DNA from: Akkermansia muciniphila | Lineage (GTDB): Bacteria; Verrucomicrobiota; Verrucomicrobiia; Verrucomicrobiales; Akkermansiaceae | Direction: 5' to 3' | NCBI GenBank assembly: GCA_945901795.1 | Contig: CAMDLP010000029.1 | Coordinates: 1 to 37,179, forward strand | DNA: 37,179 nt | Shown: piece after piece, positions 24,744-30,445 of the stretch | Position numbering within the stretch: position 1 is the stretch's first letter | Layout of the letters: each line of letters opens with the position of its first letter | Notes under the pieces: model-generated | The model's input: the letters and a program-made list of their open reading frames with translations, nothing else | Databases searched by the model: none | What the model was told of the DNA's origin: nothing | Made by a program: the position numbers and the translations under genes

Positions 24744-25379
24744 ATGGCCTCGCCGGCGGTGGAAATTTTACGACAACAATTGCGCGACAAGTTCCCGCAA
24801 GCGCATGGCTTGCGGCCGGAACCCGAGCTGCTTGCGCCGCAGGGAAAACCCTTCCGCGCCGAGGTTTTTCCCCTTGGAGCCATCTCGGAAGTCGTGCCAG
24901 CGGGACCCGGCGCGGGCATCGCTCTGCTGGTGGCCGGACTCCTTGGCGAGCCTGTGGAAACGAGCCCGCACCCGGAGCTGGTGCTCGTCGATGGCGCGGA
25001 CGCCTTCGATCCCGGTTCCTTCACCGGCGCGGCTTGCTCGAAGCTGTTATGGGTCCGCTGCGGCTCGGCGCTGGACATGCTCAAGGCGGCGGATTGGGTC
25101 GTCCATGATGGAAACGTGCCGTTCGTGCTGCTGGATGCGACCGGCGTGGCGCGCCGCGATCTCAACTCGCTTCCCGCGGCGGCCTGGTGGCGGCTGAAAC
25201 AAACCGTCGAGCGCACCGGCGGGCGGCTGGTCGTGCTGGCTCCCTTCCCGCTGGTGCCGTGCGCGAGCCTGCGGCTGTCGCTCTCAGCCGGGCTTTCGCT
25301 GGACGATTTCGACCGCCCGCGCGACGAGCTGCTAGATCGCCTGCAGGCCATCCCGGAAAAAATCCGCCGCGCCACCTGA
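24744..25379 (+). CDS. imuA: ImuA, RecA-like SOS mutagenesis protein
   Basis: This 211-residue protein is the first gene of the SOS translesion operon. It has the weak RecA/SulA-like pattern of ImuA: a start VEILRQQLRDKFPQAHGL, then VFPLGAISEVVPAGPGAGIALLVAG. The glycine-containing segment replaces a proper Walker A loop. It continues with LLWVRCGSALDMLKAADWVV, VVHDGNVPFVLLDATG, and WWRLKQTVERTGGRLVVLAP. ImuA modulates RecA and helps DnaE2/ImuB carry out error-prone bypass synthesis. Homologues vary greatly in sequence, and identification depends partly on the two neighbours, imuB (five bases downstream) and dnaE2. The LexA box at 24703-24716 should control it. Confidence 0.82.
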   Translation: MASPAVEILRQQLRDKFPQAHGLRPEPELLAPQGKPFRAEVFPLGAISEVVPAGPGAGIALLVAGLLGEPVETSPHPELVLVDGADAFDPGSFTGAACSKLLWVRCGSALDMLKAADWVVHDGNVPFVLLDATGVARRDLNSLPAAAWWRLKQTVERTGGRLVVLAPFPLVPCASLRLSLSAGLSLDDFDRPRDELLDRLQAIPEKIRRAT

Positions 25380-25384
25380 CCGCC

Positions 25385-26848
25385 ATGTTCGCCGCGCTCC
25401 ATCTGCCGGATTTCCCGGTCGCCGCCGCCTTGCGGAGCCAGCCCGCAGCGCGGGATTTCCCCTGCGCCATCCTCGCCGTGCGGGGGGCACGTGACCCGCA
25501 GGAAAAACTGCCGCTGTTTTCTATCAACCGCGCCGCGCGGACGGCGGGCATTGCTCCCGGCTGGCCGCTCAACCGGGCGCTCGTCCGCTGCCCGGACCTG
25601 CGGGTAATCCCGCGCGATTTGGCGGCGGAAACCGCCTTGCGCGACGAGCTCGTGTTCCTCGGCGAGTCCCTCACGGCGGATGTCGAGATCACCACGGCGG
25701 ATTCCGTGACACTCGATCTATCATGCCGGACGGCGCCGGTTCGTGCGGCCTTGGACCGGTTGTCGCTGGCCGGCGCGGAAATCCATCACGCCCGCGCGGA
25801 CACGCCCGATCTCGCCCACCTAGCAGCTAGGCACGAAACGACGCGGGGACGCGTCGTCTCACCGGCGGATCTCGCGCCGTTGCCGCTCGGCGTGCTCGGC
25901 TCGCTTTCGCAAGATCCCGCTTCGCTCGCACTGCTGGATTTGTGGGGGCTGCGGACGCTGGGAGATTTCATGAAATTGCCGCGACAAGCCCTGGTCGAGC
26001 GGCTGGGTCCGGAACCGGGGAAATGGCACGACCTTCTCCACGGCAAATCCTGCCGCCTGTTGCGGCTTCACCGCCCGCCGGAATCCTTCGCGCAGTCGTT
26101 CGATTTCGAGGACGCCACGGTCTCCCTCGAGCCGGTGGTTTTCGCCCTCAAACGGCTCCTTCACACCCTCGCTGGGCGGCTCGCGTCGCGCCATCTGGCC
26201 GCGAGCAATCTGGATTTCCGGCTCATCCTGGAATCCGGCGGCGAGCTGGCGCGGCGGATCCGGCTGCCTGAGCCGCAGGCCGCGGTCGAGGGGATGTTAG
26301 CGCCGTTGCAAACCTTGTTGGAATCGCTGCGGCCCGACGCGCCGGTGGCGGCGTTGCAGCTCGATGCCGAGACGACTTTCGCCACGGCGGCGCAGCGCGA
26401 ATGGTTCGGCCGCCACCTGCCGCAGCCGGAACGCTGGGCGGAAACGCTGGCGAAACTCGAAGCGCTGCTAGGCCCGGGACGCGTCGGCATCCCGGTGCCG
26501 GCGGAGTCGTTTCGCCCGGACGCCTTCACGCTCCACCCGGCGGCCGTTTCCGCTCCGCCGACCTATCCGAATTGCCCGGTCCCTTTGCATCGGTTCCGCC
26601 CGCCCCGCGAAATCGCGGTGGCCTACGAATCGCGCGGCCGCCAGCCGTGGCCGATGGCGCTGCTCAACGGCCCGTATCCCGGCGAAATCACCGACCGCCG
26701 CGGCCCCTTCCCCGCGTCCGGCGCGTGGTGGGAACCCGCCGGCGCGTGGCAGCGACTGGAGTGGGACGTCCAGCTGGCGAGCCGCCATCTGCTGCGGCTC
26801 GTTTTCCAAACCCCGGACCGCTGGACCCTCGACGGGATTTACCGATGA
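25385..26848 (+). CDS. imuB: ImuB, inactive Y-family polymerase subunit
   Basis: This 487-residue protein has the Y-family polymerase fold but lacks the catalytic acids, as expected for ImuB. The opening FAALHLPDFPVAAALRSQ corresponds to motif I but without its usual DxDxF. TTADSVTLDLS stands where active enzymes have SxDE. The thumb region (LSQDPASLALLDLWGLRTLGD) and the little-finger-like part (FDFEDATVSLEPVVFALKRL) are recognisable. In known systems ImuB bridges DnaE2 to the beta clamp and to ImuA. A long upstream extension of the same frame overlapping imuA was rejected; ATG 25385 follows the imuA stop by five bases. Its stop overlaps the dnaE2 start (ATGA), so translation of the two is coupled. 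Confidence 0.88.
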   Translation: MFAALHLPDFPVAAALRSQPAARDFPCAILAVRGARDPQEKLPLFSINRAARTAGIAPGWPLNRALVRCPDLRVIPRDLAAETALRDELVFLGESLTADVEITTADSVTLDLSCRTAPVRAALDRLSLAGAEIHHARADTPDLAHLAARHETTRGRVVSPADLAPLPLGVLGSLSQDPASLALLDLWGLRTLGDFMKLPRQALVERLGPEPGKWHDLLHGKSCRLLRLHRPPESFAQSFDFEDATVSLEPVVFALKRLLHTLAGRLASRHLAASNLDFRLILESGGELARRIRLPEPQAAVEGMLAPLQTLLESLRPDAPVAALQLDAETTFATAAQREWFGRHLPQPERWAETLAKLEALLGPGRVGIPVPAESFRPDAFTLHPAAVSAPPTYPNCPVPLHRFRPPREIAVAYESRGRQPWPMALLNGPYPGEITDRRGPFPASGAWWEPAGAWQRLEWDVQLASRHLLRLVFQTPDRWTLDGIYR

Positions 26849-29800
26849 AACCGGAGTTCGCAGAGCTGCACGCGCATTCCGCCTTCTCGTTCCTGCTTGG
26901 CGCGAGCCAGCCGGAAACCCTGGTCCGGCGCGCCGCGGAGCTCGGCTACGAAACCATCGCCATCACCGACCGCGCGGGCTTTTACGGCTCCGCCCGCGCC
27001 CACCACGCCGCCAAGGAATGCGGCGTCCGCGCGGTGGTCGGCAGCGTGCTCGACCTGCCGGACGGGACGCGCTTCCCGGTGCTCTGCGCCTCGCGCGACG
27101 GCTACCGGACGCTGTCGCGGCATCTCACGGACCGCCACCTGCTGCCGGGCGAGGATCACGGGTTTTCTCCAACAGGAAACCATCTGATCGCCCTCACCGG
27201 CGACCGCGACGGCCCGCTCTGCCGCCCCTTGTTAGCGAACGACCGCCAAGGCGCGCTGCTCGCCGCCGAGCGGTTGATCCGGCTTTTCGGCCGGGGCAAC
27301 GTCTATGTGGAAATCAACCGCCACGGCCTGCGGGACGACGGCCGGCTGAACCGCCAGCTCGTCGATCTGGCAGCCCATCTCCGGCTGCCGTTGTTAGCCA
27401 GCAACGCGCCGTTGCACGCGACCCGCGGCGACCGCCGGCTGGCGGACGCCTTCGCCTGTCTCCGCCACCACCTGCCGCTCGACCGGGCGGGCCGCTTGCT
27501 CGCGCCCAACGGCGAGCGGCATTTGAAATCCCCGCGTGAAATGGCCGCGCTGTTTTCCGATCTGCCAGAAGCTGTTGGAAACACGCTGCGACTCGCGGAC
27601 CGGATCGGCTTCACCCTGGAAAACCTCGACTACCGCTTCCCGGATTTCCCGGACGGCCGGGGCAATCCGCTTTCGCTCACCGAGCAAACGACGCTGCTGC
27701 GCCGCCACACCTACGCCGGCGCCTCGCGTCGCTACGGAATTTGCAGCGAGCAGGTGAAAAACCAGCTGGAGCACGAGCTGGCGATGATCCACCGGCTGGG
27801 ATTTCCCGGTTATTTCCTCATCGTCCACGACCTCGTCGAGTTCGCCCGCGGGCGCGGCATCCTCTGCCAGGGCCGCGGCTCGGCGGCCAACTCGGTGGTC
27901 TGTTACGCGCTCGGCATCACCGCCGTCGATCCGGTCGGCAGCGGGCTGTTGTTCGAGCGATTTCTATCCGAAAACCGCAAGATCTGGCCGGACATCGACA
28001 TCGACTTCCCCTCCGGCGAGCGGCGCGAGGAAGTGATCCAGCACGTTTTCAAAAAATACGGCGCGCGCAACGCGGCGATGACCGCCAACGTCATCACCTA
28101 CCGGCCGAAATCCGCGTTCCGGGAAATGAGCAAGGTGTTAGGCTTCCCACCCTCGGTGGCGGAGCGGTTTTCCGGCAGCGCGTCTTCTTCCGAAGGCGGA
28201 AGGGCGGCGTTCGAGGAGCGCGTTGCGGGCATTTTGCCGCCGTCGCACCCGCGACTGCCGGCACTCTGCCATCTCTATCATGCCGTGCTCGGGATGCCGC
28301 GCCACCTCGGCCAGCACTCCGGCGGGATGATCGTCTGCGACCACGGGCTCGACGCGGTGGTGCCCTTGCAGCCCGCCACCATGCCGGGGCGCACCGTCGT
28401 CCAGTGGGACAAGGACGACTGCGAGGACATGGGGATGGTGAAAATCGACCTGCTCGGACTCGGCATGTTAGCCGCGCTGGAACACGCCTTGGAAATCCGC
28501 TCCCGCCTCGGCCAGCCGCTCGATCTGGCGACGATCCCGATGGACGATCCAGCGGTCTTCGAGATGCTTTCTCGCGCCGACACCATCGGCACTTTCCAAG
28601 TCGAAAGCCGCGCGCAGATGGCCACATTGCCGATCATGCGGCCTCGGACGTTTTACGATCTCGCCATCCAGGTCGCCATCATCCGGCCCGGCCCGATCGT
28701 CGGCGACCTCGTCCATCCCTATCTGAACCGCCGCAACGGCCGTGAGAAAATCGACTGCATCCATCCCGCCTGCGAGGAGATCCTGGCGCGCACGTTAGGC
28801 GTTCCGTTGTTCCAGGAGCAAGTGCTGCGGATGGCGATGGCCGTGGCCGGATTCAGCGGCGCGGAGGCGGATGAACTCCGGCGGGCGATGGCCTTCAAGC
28901 GCAGCGACGACCGCATGGAAAACGTCACCGCCAAGCTCCGCCTGCGGATGGGCGAGCGCGGGGTCGCGGCCGAGGTGCAGGAGAAAATCGTCGCGTCTAT
29001 CGGATCGTTCGCGCTCTATGGGTTTCCGGAGAGCCACGCCATTTCCTTCGCGCTCATCGCCTACGCGAGCTGCTGGCTCAAGGTCCACCACCCGGCGGAA
29101 TTCTACGCCGGACTCATCAATCACCAGCCGATGGGTTTCTACTCGGTCAACACGCTGTTGCAGGACGCGCAACGCCACGGCATCCGCATCCGGCCGGTTT
29201 CCTGCATCCGGAGCGGCGAACTAACCGAGGTGGAAAACGCCGTCACCCTGCGCCTCGGCCTTCACCGCGTCAAAGGCCTGTCCGCTGCGACAAGGGGCCG
29301 CATCACCGGCGAAAGGGAGAAATCCGCGTTCTCCTCGGTGGAAGATTTCCTAGCGCGAGTGCGACCCAGCACGAAGGAAAAGCGCGCGCTCGCCCAAGCC
29401 GGTGCTTTGAACGGGCTGCCAGAAATCGGCCACCGGCGCGAGGCCCTGTGGCAAATCGAGCTGCCCTTGCACGACGACCTGCTCCTGCCGCGGCACCCGG
29501 TCCGGCAAGGGGTTCTCCAACTGATGTCACCGGCGGAACGCTTGACCGCCGACTTCGCCACGCAAGGAGCCAGCACCGGCCCGCACCCGATGTTTCTCTG
29601 GCGGGAAAAATCCGGCACACCTAACACCCTCCGCGCCTTGGATTTACAAAATCTCCCCCACGGCATTCCCGTCACCGTCGCCGGCATGGCGATCTGCCGC
29701 CAGCGGCCCGGCACCGCCAACGGCCATTGCTTCATTTCGCTCGAGGACGAGACCGGCATCGCCAACCTCTTCGTCCCGAAAACCAAGTTTCACCGCCTGC

Positions 29801-29949
29801 GCGGCGTGATCACCAGCGAGCCGTTCCTCCGGGTGGAAGGAATTCTCCAGCGCTCGGAGGGCGACCAGCCCACCGTCTATGTTTTCCACATCGAGCCGCT
29901 CTCCGGGATCGAGCCGGAGCACGCCGCGCAGTCGCATGATTTCCACTGA
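26845..29949 (+). CDS. dnaE2: Error-prone DNA polymerase DnaE2
   Basis: This 1034-residue C-family polymerase carries out damage-induced, mutagenic translesion synthesis. The N-terminal PHP domain starts AELHAHSAFSFLLGASQPE. The palm has GRGSAANSVVCYALGIT at about residues 345-361 and the catalytic acids in PDIDIDF (D383, D385, D387). Downstream come the finger block LGMPRHLGQHSGGMIVCD, the FQVESRAQMATLP motif and GFPESHAISFALIAYASCWL. The C-terminus has a helix-hairpin-helix region and an OB-fold (VTVAGMAICRQRPGTANGHC). It is about 130 residues shorter than replicative DnaE, and the missing part is the C-terminal tau-binding extension, as in other DnaE2 proteins. With imuA-imuB ahead and a LexA box, the DnaE2 assignment is firm. 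Confidence 0.94.
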   Translation: MKPEFAELHAHSAFSFLLGASQPETLVRRAAELGYETIAITDRAGFYGSARAHHAAKECGVRAVVGSVLDLPDGTRFPVLCASRDGYRTLSRHLTDRHLLPGEDHGFSPTGNHLIALTGDRDGPLCRPLLANDRQGALLAAERLIRLFGRGNVYVEINRHGLRDDGRLNRQLVDLAAHLRLPLLASNAPLHATRGDRRLADAFACLRHHLPLDRAGRLLAPNGERHLKSPREMAALFSDLPEAVGNTLRLADRIGFTLENLDYRFPDFPDGRGNPLSLTEQTTLLRRHTYAGASRRYGICSEQVKNQLEHELAMIHRLGFPGYFLIVHDLVEFARGRGILCQGRGSAANSVVCYALGITAVDPVGSGLLFERFLSENRKIWPDIDIDFPSGERREEVIQHVFKKYGARNAAMTANVITYRPKSAFREMSKVLGFPPSVAERFSGSASSSEGGRAAFEERVAGILPPSHPRLPALCHLYHAVLGMPRHLGQHSGGMIVCDHGLDAVVPLQPATMPGRTVVQWDKDDCEDMGMVKIDLLGLGMLAALEHALEIRSRLGQPLDLATIPMDDPAVFEMLSRADTIGTFQVESRAQMATLPIMRPRTFYDLAIQVAIIRPGPIVGDLVHPYLNRRNGREKIDCIHPACEEILARTLGVPLFQEQVLRMAMAVAGFSGAEADELRRAMAFKRSDDRMENVTAKLRLRMGERGVAAEVQEKIVASIGSFALYGFPESHAISFALIAYASCWLKVHHPAEFYAGLINHQPMGFYSVNTLLQDAQRHGIRIRPVSCIRSGELTEVENAVTLRLGLHRVKGLSAATRGRITGEREKSAFSSVEDFLARVRPSTKEKRALAQAGALNGLPEIGHRREALWQIELPLHDDLLLPRHPVRQGVLQLMSPAERLTADFATQGASTGPHPMFLWREKSGTPNTLRALDLQNLPHGIPVTVAGMAICRQRPGTANGHCFISLEDETGIANLFVPKTKFHRLRGVITSEPFLRVEGILQRSEGDQPTVYVFHIEPLSGIEPEHAAQSHDFH

Positions 29950-29969
29950 GGATTGGCCTTAAAACGTCA

Positions 29970-30008
29970 TCGGCGGATGTTGAAGGGGGAACCTACAACA
30001 TCCGCCGA
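29970..30008. repeat. Hairpin repeat copy A after dnaE2
   Basis: TCGGCGGATGTTG (29970-29982) pairs perfectly with CAACATCCGCCGA (29996-30008) around a 13-base loop with GGGGGAACC. A G-run of seven follows at 30016-30022. It starts 20 bp after the dnaE2 stop, so it may also act as its terminator, though the T-tract is poor. It is a close relative of the hairpin at 30178-30216. Confidence 0.85.
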
Positions 30009-30177
30009 CTTGTTTGGGGGGGAGTGTGTGTCGTGGTCCGCGTCACTTTGGGGGGAATGTGGCAGCGGCGACACACAAGATGTATCCCATTTCCGGCCGC
30101 AATCCATGACGTGATCGCGTAGCATTGAATCCTTTTCCATCGGCAAATCCACCCCCCCACCGCCCCCACCCGCCGAG

Positions 30178-30216
30178 TCGGCGGAGGTTGGGGGGGGAAC
30201 CCACAACCTCCGCCGA
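30178..30216. repeat. Hairpin repeat copy B upstream of bioA
   Basis: TCGGCGGAGGTTG (30178-30190) pairs perfectly with CAACCTCCGCCGA (30204-30216) around a 13-base loop sharing GGGGGAACC with copy A. The single stem difference from copy A, T-A to G-C, is compensated on both sides. The left arm can alternatively pair with CCGCCGA at 30170-30176 immediately upstream, giving two mutually exclusive folds. A G-run of six follows at 30226-30231, as after copy A. Confidence 0.85.
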
Positions 30217-30225
30217 CTGTTCTTT

Positions 30226-30274
30226 GGGGGGAGATGTTTTCGGGGGGATTTTTTGAGGGGAGATTTTTCGGGGG
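30226..30274 (+). other. Four-run G-tract cluster, possible G-quadruplex
   Basis: G-runs of 6, 6, 4 and 5 bases lie at 30226-30231, 30242-30247, 30257-30260 and 30270-30274, separated by 9-10 base T-rich spacers. Four long runs on one strand with regular spacing could fold into a quadruplex in single-stranded DNA or RNA, although the loops are longer than the seven bases usually required. Confidence 0.5.
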
Positions 30275-30445
30275 AGGAAATCCCCCGCTCACGGCAAGCA
30301 CTGGGGGGCTGCGTTTACCGTGAATCAGGGGATTTTGCTTTCCCTGTTTCCACCCACACGCCGTGACGTGGAGTTTTGCAGGGGCTAGTAATACATCATT
30401 GGTGGCGGATGATTTCAAGATATTTCTGGTAATCAATTTGTCATA

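Follow-up and report, generated by a model that had tools for sequence, protein, structure and literature searches.

Our analysis suggests that two related hairpins lying between dnaE2 and bioA, which we call A and B, form the 3' ends of two tandem, paralogous sRNA genes on the minus strand, belonging to a multicopy family of base-pairing RNAs with C-rich loops that resembles sX13 and 6C RNA. We assign this reading a probability of roughly 0.7. The window, i.e., the whole stretch of DNA analyzed, comprises 37,179 nucleotides of an Akkermansia muciniphila contig, in which NCBIfam models named dnaE2 (error-prone DNA polymerase) and bioA (TIGR00508). The units that end in the two hairpins have a conserved anatomy, covary in structure, are spread through a taxonomic family, and occur in tandem copies.

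Hairpins A (29970-30008) and B (30178-30216) each consist of a 13-bp stem and a 13-base loop holding GGGGGAACC, and they differ in a single stem pair, which is T-A in the first hairpin and G-C in the second. The sequence, the repeats, and a pattern search all confirmed these stem and loop lengths and the compensatory change, as given in the preliminary description. The pattern search returned two matches in the window versus none in 100 shuffles, and both hairpins lie within a 53-nt direct repeat whose copies are 81% identical at a spacing of 208. On the plus strand, each hairpin is followed by a T-rich stretch (TTGTTT and TGTTCTTT) and then by a G-rich stretch. Folded as plus-strand RNA, hairpin A reaches -29.1 kcal/mol (z -7.35) and hairpin B -38.4 kcal/mol (z -5.28); with 20 more upstream bases, the z score of B is -2.98, and 2 of 200 shuffles fold equally well. 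A switch-like refolding of B with the upstream CCGCCGA, which had been proposed, did not hold up, as both the minimum free energy (MFE) and the centroid structure retain hairpin B when upstream bases are included, and complete CCGCCGA/TCGGCGG pairing would leave a one-base loop.

Reading the loci of relatives revealed a common order of elements on the minus strand, in which hairpin A or its counterpart is the final stem. A typical unit spans about 120 to 130 nt. Upstream stands CGYGATCRCG, followed after a gap of 11 to 12 nt by GGCCGRAAATGGGATA; then come a 5' stem with a C-run in its loop, a UCCCCCC linker, and a 3' stem that again carries a C-run in its loop. In unit 1, with all features given on the minus strand, the near-palindromic block CGYGATCRCG (CGTGATCGCG on the plus strand) lies at 30110..30119 and may be a regulator site or a distal promoter part, while the conserved block GGCCGGAAATGGGATA at 30083..30098, with its -10-like GGGATA, is a putative promoter. 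The 5' stem-loop, which is the third stem that the MFE fold places between A and B (30027..30075), is supported by covariation as well and exposes a C6 loop, corresponding to the plus-strand G-run at 30050-30055. The G-run that follows hairpin A on the plus strand is, on the minus strand, the single-stranded C-run of the linker (30016..30022). Hairpin A itself (29969..30009) is on this strand a terminator-like 3' stem of 14 bp with a C5 loop, and TTTT (29961-29964) starts 4 nt past the stem. The fold of unit 1 has a z score of -7.55 and leaves all three C-runs unpaired. R2, the full-length covariance model of the unit, matches 29958..30087 with 139.6 bits, unit 1 being one of the eight sequences from which R2 was built.

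In unit 2, the 3' stem, hairpin B (30176..30218), has no minus-strand U-tract behind it, the R2 match of the unit (30166..30285) scores 55.9 bits, and the 5' stem-loop, again with a C6 loop, was placed at 30290..30322 on the minus strand from folds and from an alignment with three relatives. Given that it has neither the U-tract nor the GGCCG block, unit 2 may be read through or may be decaying; a TTGAA-like candidate promoter at about 30413-30418 was considered by eye. On the plus strand, the stretch from B to the 5' stem of unit 2 holds four closely spaced G-runs (30226-30277), which are shorter or absent in the relatives G180, G170, and G076 and could form a long-loop G-quadruplex. A minus-strand open reading frame of 147 amino acids spans both units (29993..30436), and we rejected it as a real gene, judging it spurious because the region contains many indels between relatives.

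A covariance model built from A and B only (R1) found nothing else in the organism's own genome and matched 24 of the 195 genomes of the taxonomic family, 22 of them, own genome included, from the same genus; a DNA query with the spacer matched 16 of the 195. R2 extended this picture, matching 34 of 73 genus genomes at E<=0.01 and three places in the own genome, namely, units 1 and 2 and a further copy on another contig (C9:19773-19912) that precedes a glycosidase-like gene. Just past this third unit, an inverted repeat around CAGGCAGGAATGCCTG (locus L003, about 1310-1375, on G000:C9) may be a REP-like element. Among single-contig genomes, and with opposite-strand matches at one place merged, G131 and G082 have six places each and G036 has five, some of them weak. 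Across the order, R2 matched 22 of 288 genomes from 3 of 50 genera, all within one family. Altogether, 125 matches were reduced to 69 distinct places, 56 being dropped as other-strand, repeated, or identical, and seven places shorter than 90 nt were excluded from the folding-energy, flank, and tail-score counts (n = 62).

A search of named genomes with the upstream-block pattern gave 17 stretches with 19 matches; the pattern was derived from units already seen, and several of its matches are those same units. On reading, 15 of the stretches (17 matches) show the unit architecture, one being cut by a contig end, and the stretches from the Leptospiraceae and Limimaricola records do not. One unit match (locus L078) is in the genome of Luteolibacter pohnpeiensis, a cultured relative. 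The records with units are named Luteolibacter, Akkermansiaceae, Verrucomicrobiaceae, Prosthecobacter, Akkermansia, and uncultured Verrucomicrobia, and "Luteolibacter-like" is our own reading of these mixed labels.

Several lines of evidence point to a conserved RNA structure. In a structure-free MAFFT alignment of 17 units, RNAalifold predicts 25 pairs, of which 10 show two-sided changes; the prediction recovers the 3' stem and misses the 5' stem. For the eight canonical units, whose structure we set by hand and from which R2 was built, 91.9% of cells are paired and eight pairs show two-sided changes; four of five measures were reached by 0 of 500 shuffles and the fifth by 23 of 500. An alignment of 26 units, found by R2 in 25 chosen sources and thus fitted to the model, has 88.3% of cells paired, a value that drops to at most 52.7% when the partners are slid, and none of 500 shuffles reached any of the five measures. 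In this alignment, 22 of 31 pairs show two-sided changes, among them the T-A/G-C pair of the preliminary description, which supports the view that the structure is maintained by compensatory change. RNAalifold's own fold of the 26 units comprises the 3' stem and, of the 5' stem, only the four innermost pairs. Relatives show both further copies and covariation, whose absence would have spoken against the preliminary description. The C-runs are a recurrent part of this element as well: runs of at least five C occur at least twice in 54 of the 69 places and at least three times in 40. In a 437-kb sample of the own genome, runs of at least six G or C are rare (60 in total), and nine of them lie in the three units, which together span 505 bases.

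The strand is a separate matter, and the plus-strand placement after dnaE2 in the preliminary description is probably wrong. Both upstream blocks occur in order at the minus-strand 5' end of 25 of the 69 places, with a gap (8 to 14 allowed) of 11 in 15 and of 12 in 10 of them, and the same two-block search at the other end and on the other strand of the units found them in 0 of 69. Leaving out six places from loci fetched with the block pattern, the count is 19 of 63; a few of these remaining places were obtained with a DNA query covering the block. This conserved block at one end suggests that the minus strand is likely the transcribed one, as does the basal stem pair, which on the minus strand is G-U, G-C, or A-U in all 26 units (G-U in 19) and on the plus strand would pair in only 7 of 26. 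Three other comparisons are neutral: T counts (31 for minus versus 28 for plus), U-tract tail scores (35 versus 27 of 62, p 0.20), and G-U versus A-C cells once the basal pair is left out (40 versus 40). Against the minus strand, 48 of 62 places reach a lower folding energy when read as plus-strand RNA, an advantage that we partly discount because G-rich strands pair promiscuously.

The block GGCCGRAAATGGGATA, at up to two mismatches, occurs twice in the own genome, both times at units; a reversed control pattern occurs twice as well, and this genome count alone therefore proves nothing. CGYGATCRCG occurs 13 times in the 437-kb sample and ranks second among 60 palindromes of the same composition (median, 3); it is possibly a general regulator site or a methylation motif. 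By eye, neither a sigma-54-like nor a standard sigma-70 reading of the upstream block found support.

Could A and B simply be duplicated bidirectional intrinsic terminators, serving dnaE2 on the plus strand among others, with no regulatory RNA involved? The T-rich stretches after both hairpins on the plus strand and the nearly equal U-tract scores of the two strands would fit this idea; many relatives' units have good U-tracts, overall with no strand preference. A consensus terminator scan listed neither A nor B among its results. We consider this account unlikely, since it explains neither the covarying 5' stem, nor C-runs at three places, nor an upstream block at fixed distance, and since the plus-strand gene before the hairpin is codirectional in 27 of the 48 units with a called gene and is not in the other 21. 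A shared terminator is, moreover, compatible with the sRNA reading.

The genes around the units bear on two other explanations. At the 5' end of the unit, where a gene was called for 54 units, that gene is divergent in 42. Counted by distinct flank pairs, the figure is 29 of 36, and the pairs divide into 17 (-,-), 12 (-,+), 4 (+,-), and 3 (+,+). Together with the lower plus-strand folding energy, this arrangement would suit a plus-strand element acting in cis on a downstream gene like bioA, as a leader or as a DNA control region. The neighbors, however, vary widely (the left-hand genes fall into 20 distinct families on one strand and 10 on the other), and a bioA-like gene lies beside only 13 of 62 units, at whose 5' side it is divergent; the unit-to-gene distance ranges from tens to hundreds of bases, and the terminator-like stem would stand first in such a leader. 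We therefore regard a cis element as distinctly improbable. The bioA-like neighbors, assigned by clustering after one of the 14 members of flank family F0 (L021) proved unlike bioA and was dropped, come from 10 genomes, and 10 of the 62 units have a prfC-like gene at their 3' side (by clustering, with one prfC tested by NCBIfam).

Several copies per genome, tandem arrays, and varied neighbors are also what a small mobile or repeat element of the REP or MITE type bearing hairpins might leave behind. Such an origin appears highly improbable to us: copy number is low (three places in the own genome), the internal structure covaries, and the position beside bioA-like genes, conserved in 10 genomes, indicates that the locus is old and does not look mobile. 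The preliminary idea that the hairpin was copied as a foldable unit fared partly well. Tandem units occur in G180, G184, G161, and G207 as well as in this genome, and in G170 the space between dnaE2 and bioA holds one unit only. The left flank of this single unit resembles that of A and its right flank that of B, which points either to a duplication in this genome and G180 or to a deletion in the others. On the far side of the units from bioA, a Y-family polymerase-like open reading frame (ImuB-like by eye) followed by dnaE2 forms a mutasome-like cassette (25187-29949), in which dnaE2 alone was named by family search.

As the preliminary description recognized no known RNA family, so Rfam searches of 1.4 kb of the window gave no family over its cutoff, the six subthreshold matches being judged chance. 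The same was true of 18 loci, where a flg-Rhizobiales match (28.3 bits versus a cutoff of 55) was likewise judged chance. The 6C RNA model (RF01066) matched 0 of 59 relatives, in a search whose sensitivity was limited, as the Corynebacterium glutamicum positive control fell below the cutoff, and it had no match in the 18 loci at E<=1. Searches of the open-access literature turned up no such RNA in Verrucomicrobia or Luteolibacter, and the family apparently has not been described so far. The hairpin loops of 6C RNA contain runs of about six C, a trait shared by the places with at least three C-runs. The units differ from 6C RNA, which is actinobacterial, in phylum, upstream block, and their several copies. 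In C. glutamicum, 6C RNA is reported to be induced about twofold by mitomycin C (PMC6789036), a suggestive but unproven parallel to the location of the units beside dnaE2.

A second precedent is sX13 of Xanthomonas, an sRNA in which C-rich loops on several stable stems are proposed to pair with G-rich mRNA motifs (PMC3771888). Like sX13, the units combine stable stems with unpaired C-rich stretches. The three stems of sX13 end in apical loops, whereas the units carry one C-run in a single-stranded linker; they also occur in several copies per genome. In our reading, the minus strand would be transcribed from the conserved upstream block, hairpin A would terminate the unit 1 transcript, and each typical RNA would expose unpaired C-runs in its 5' loop, linker, and 3' loop. 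By analogy with sX13, these might pair in trans with G-rich mRNA stretches, altering translation or stability. One observation on the other side is that G-runs show no overall enrichment ahead of starts: GGGG occurs at -25..-1 of 15 of 289 guessed start positions, versus 13, 21, and 8 in control stretches. In their arrangement, the related copies, tandem or dispersed, also recall the multicopy or sibling sRNAs LhrC and AbcR1/2, for which shared targets have been proposed.

More tentatively, and with somewhat less than even confidence, we can envisage a network of sibling C-rich sRNAs, tandemly amplified so that a genome may hold as many as about six, governed by a dedicated CGYGATCRCG-binding regulator and of an origin independent of 6C and sX13, which would be the first of its kind known in Verrucomicrobiota.

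If transcribed, the units would add a defined family of sRNAs, together with a covariance model ready for use and a motif upstream, to a phylum with few listed so far; one review gives eight sRNAs for the whole PVC group (PMC9029176). The common upstream block would offer a route to finding the regulator, and the occurrence of C-rich loops in unrelated phyla would point to a way of controlling G-rich mRNAs that arises repeatedly.
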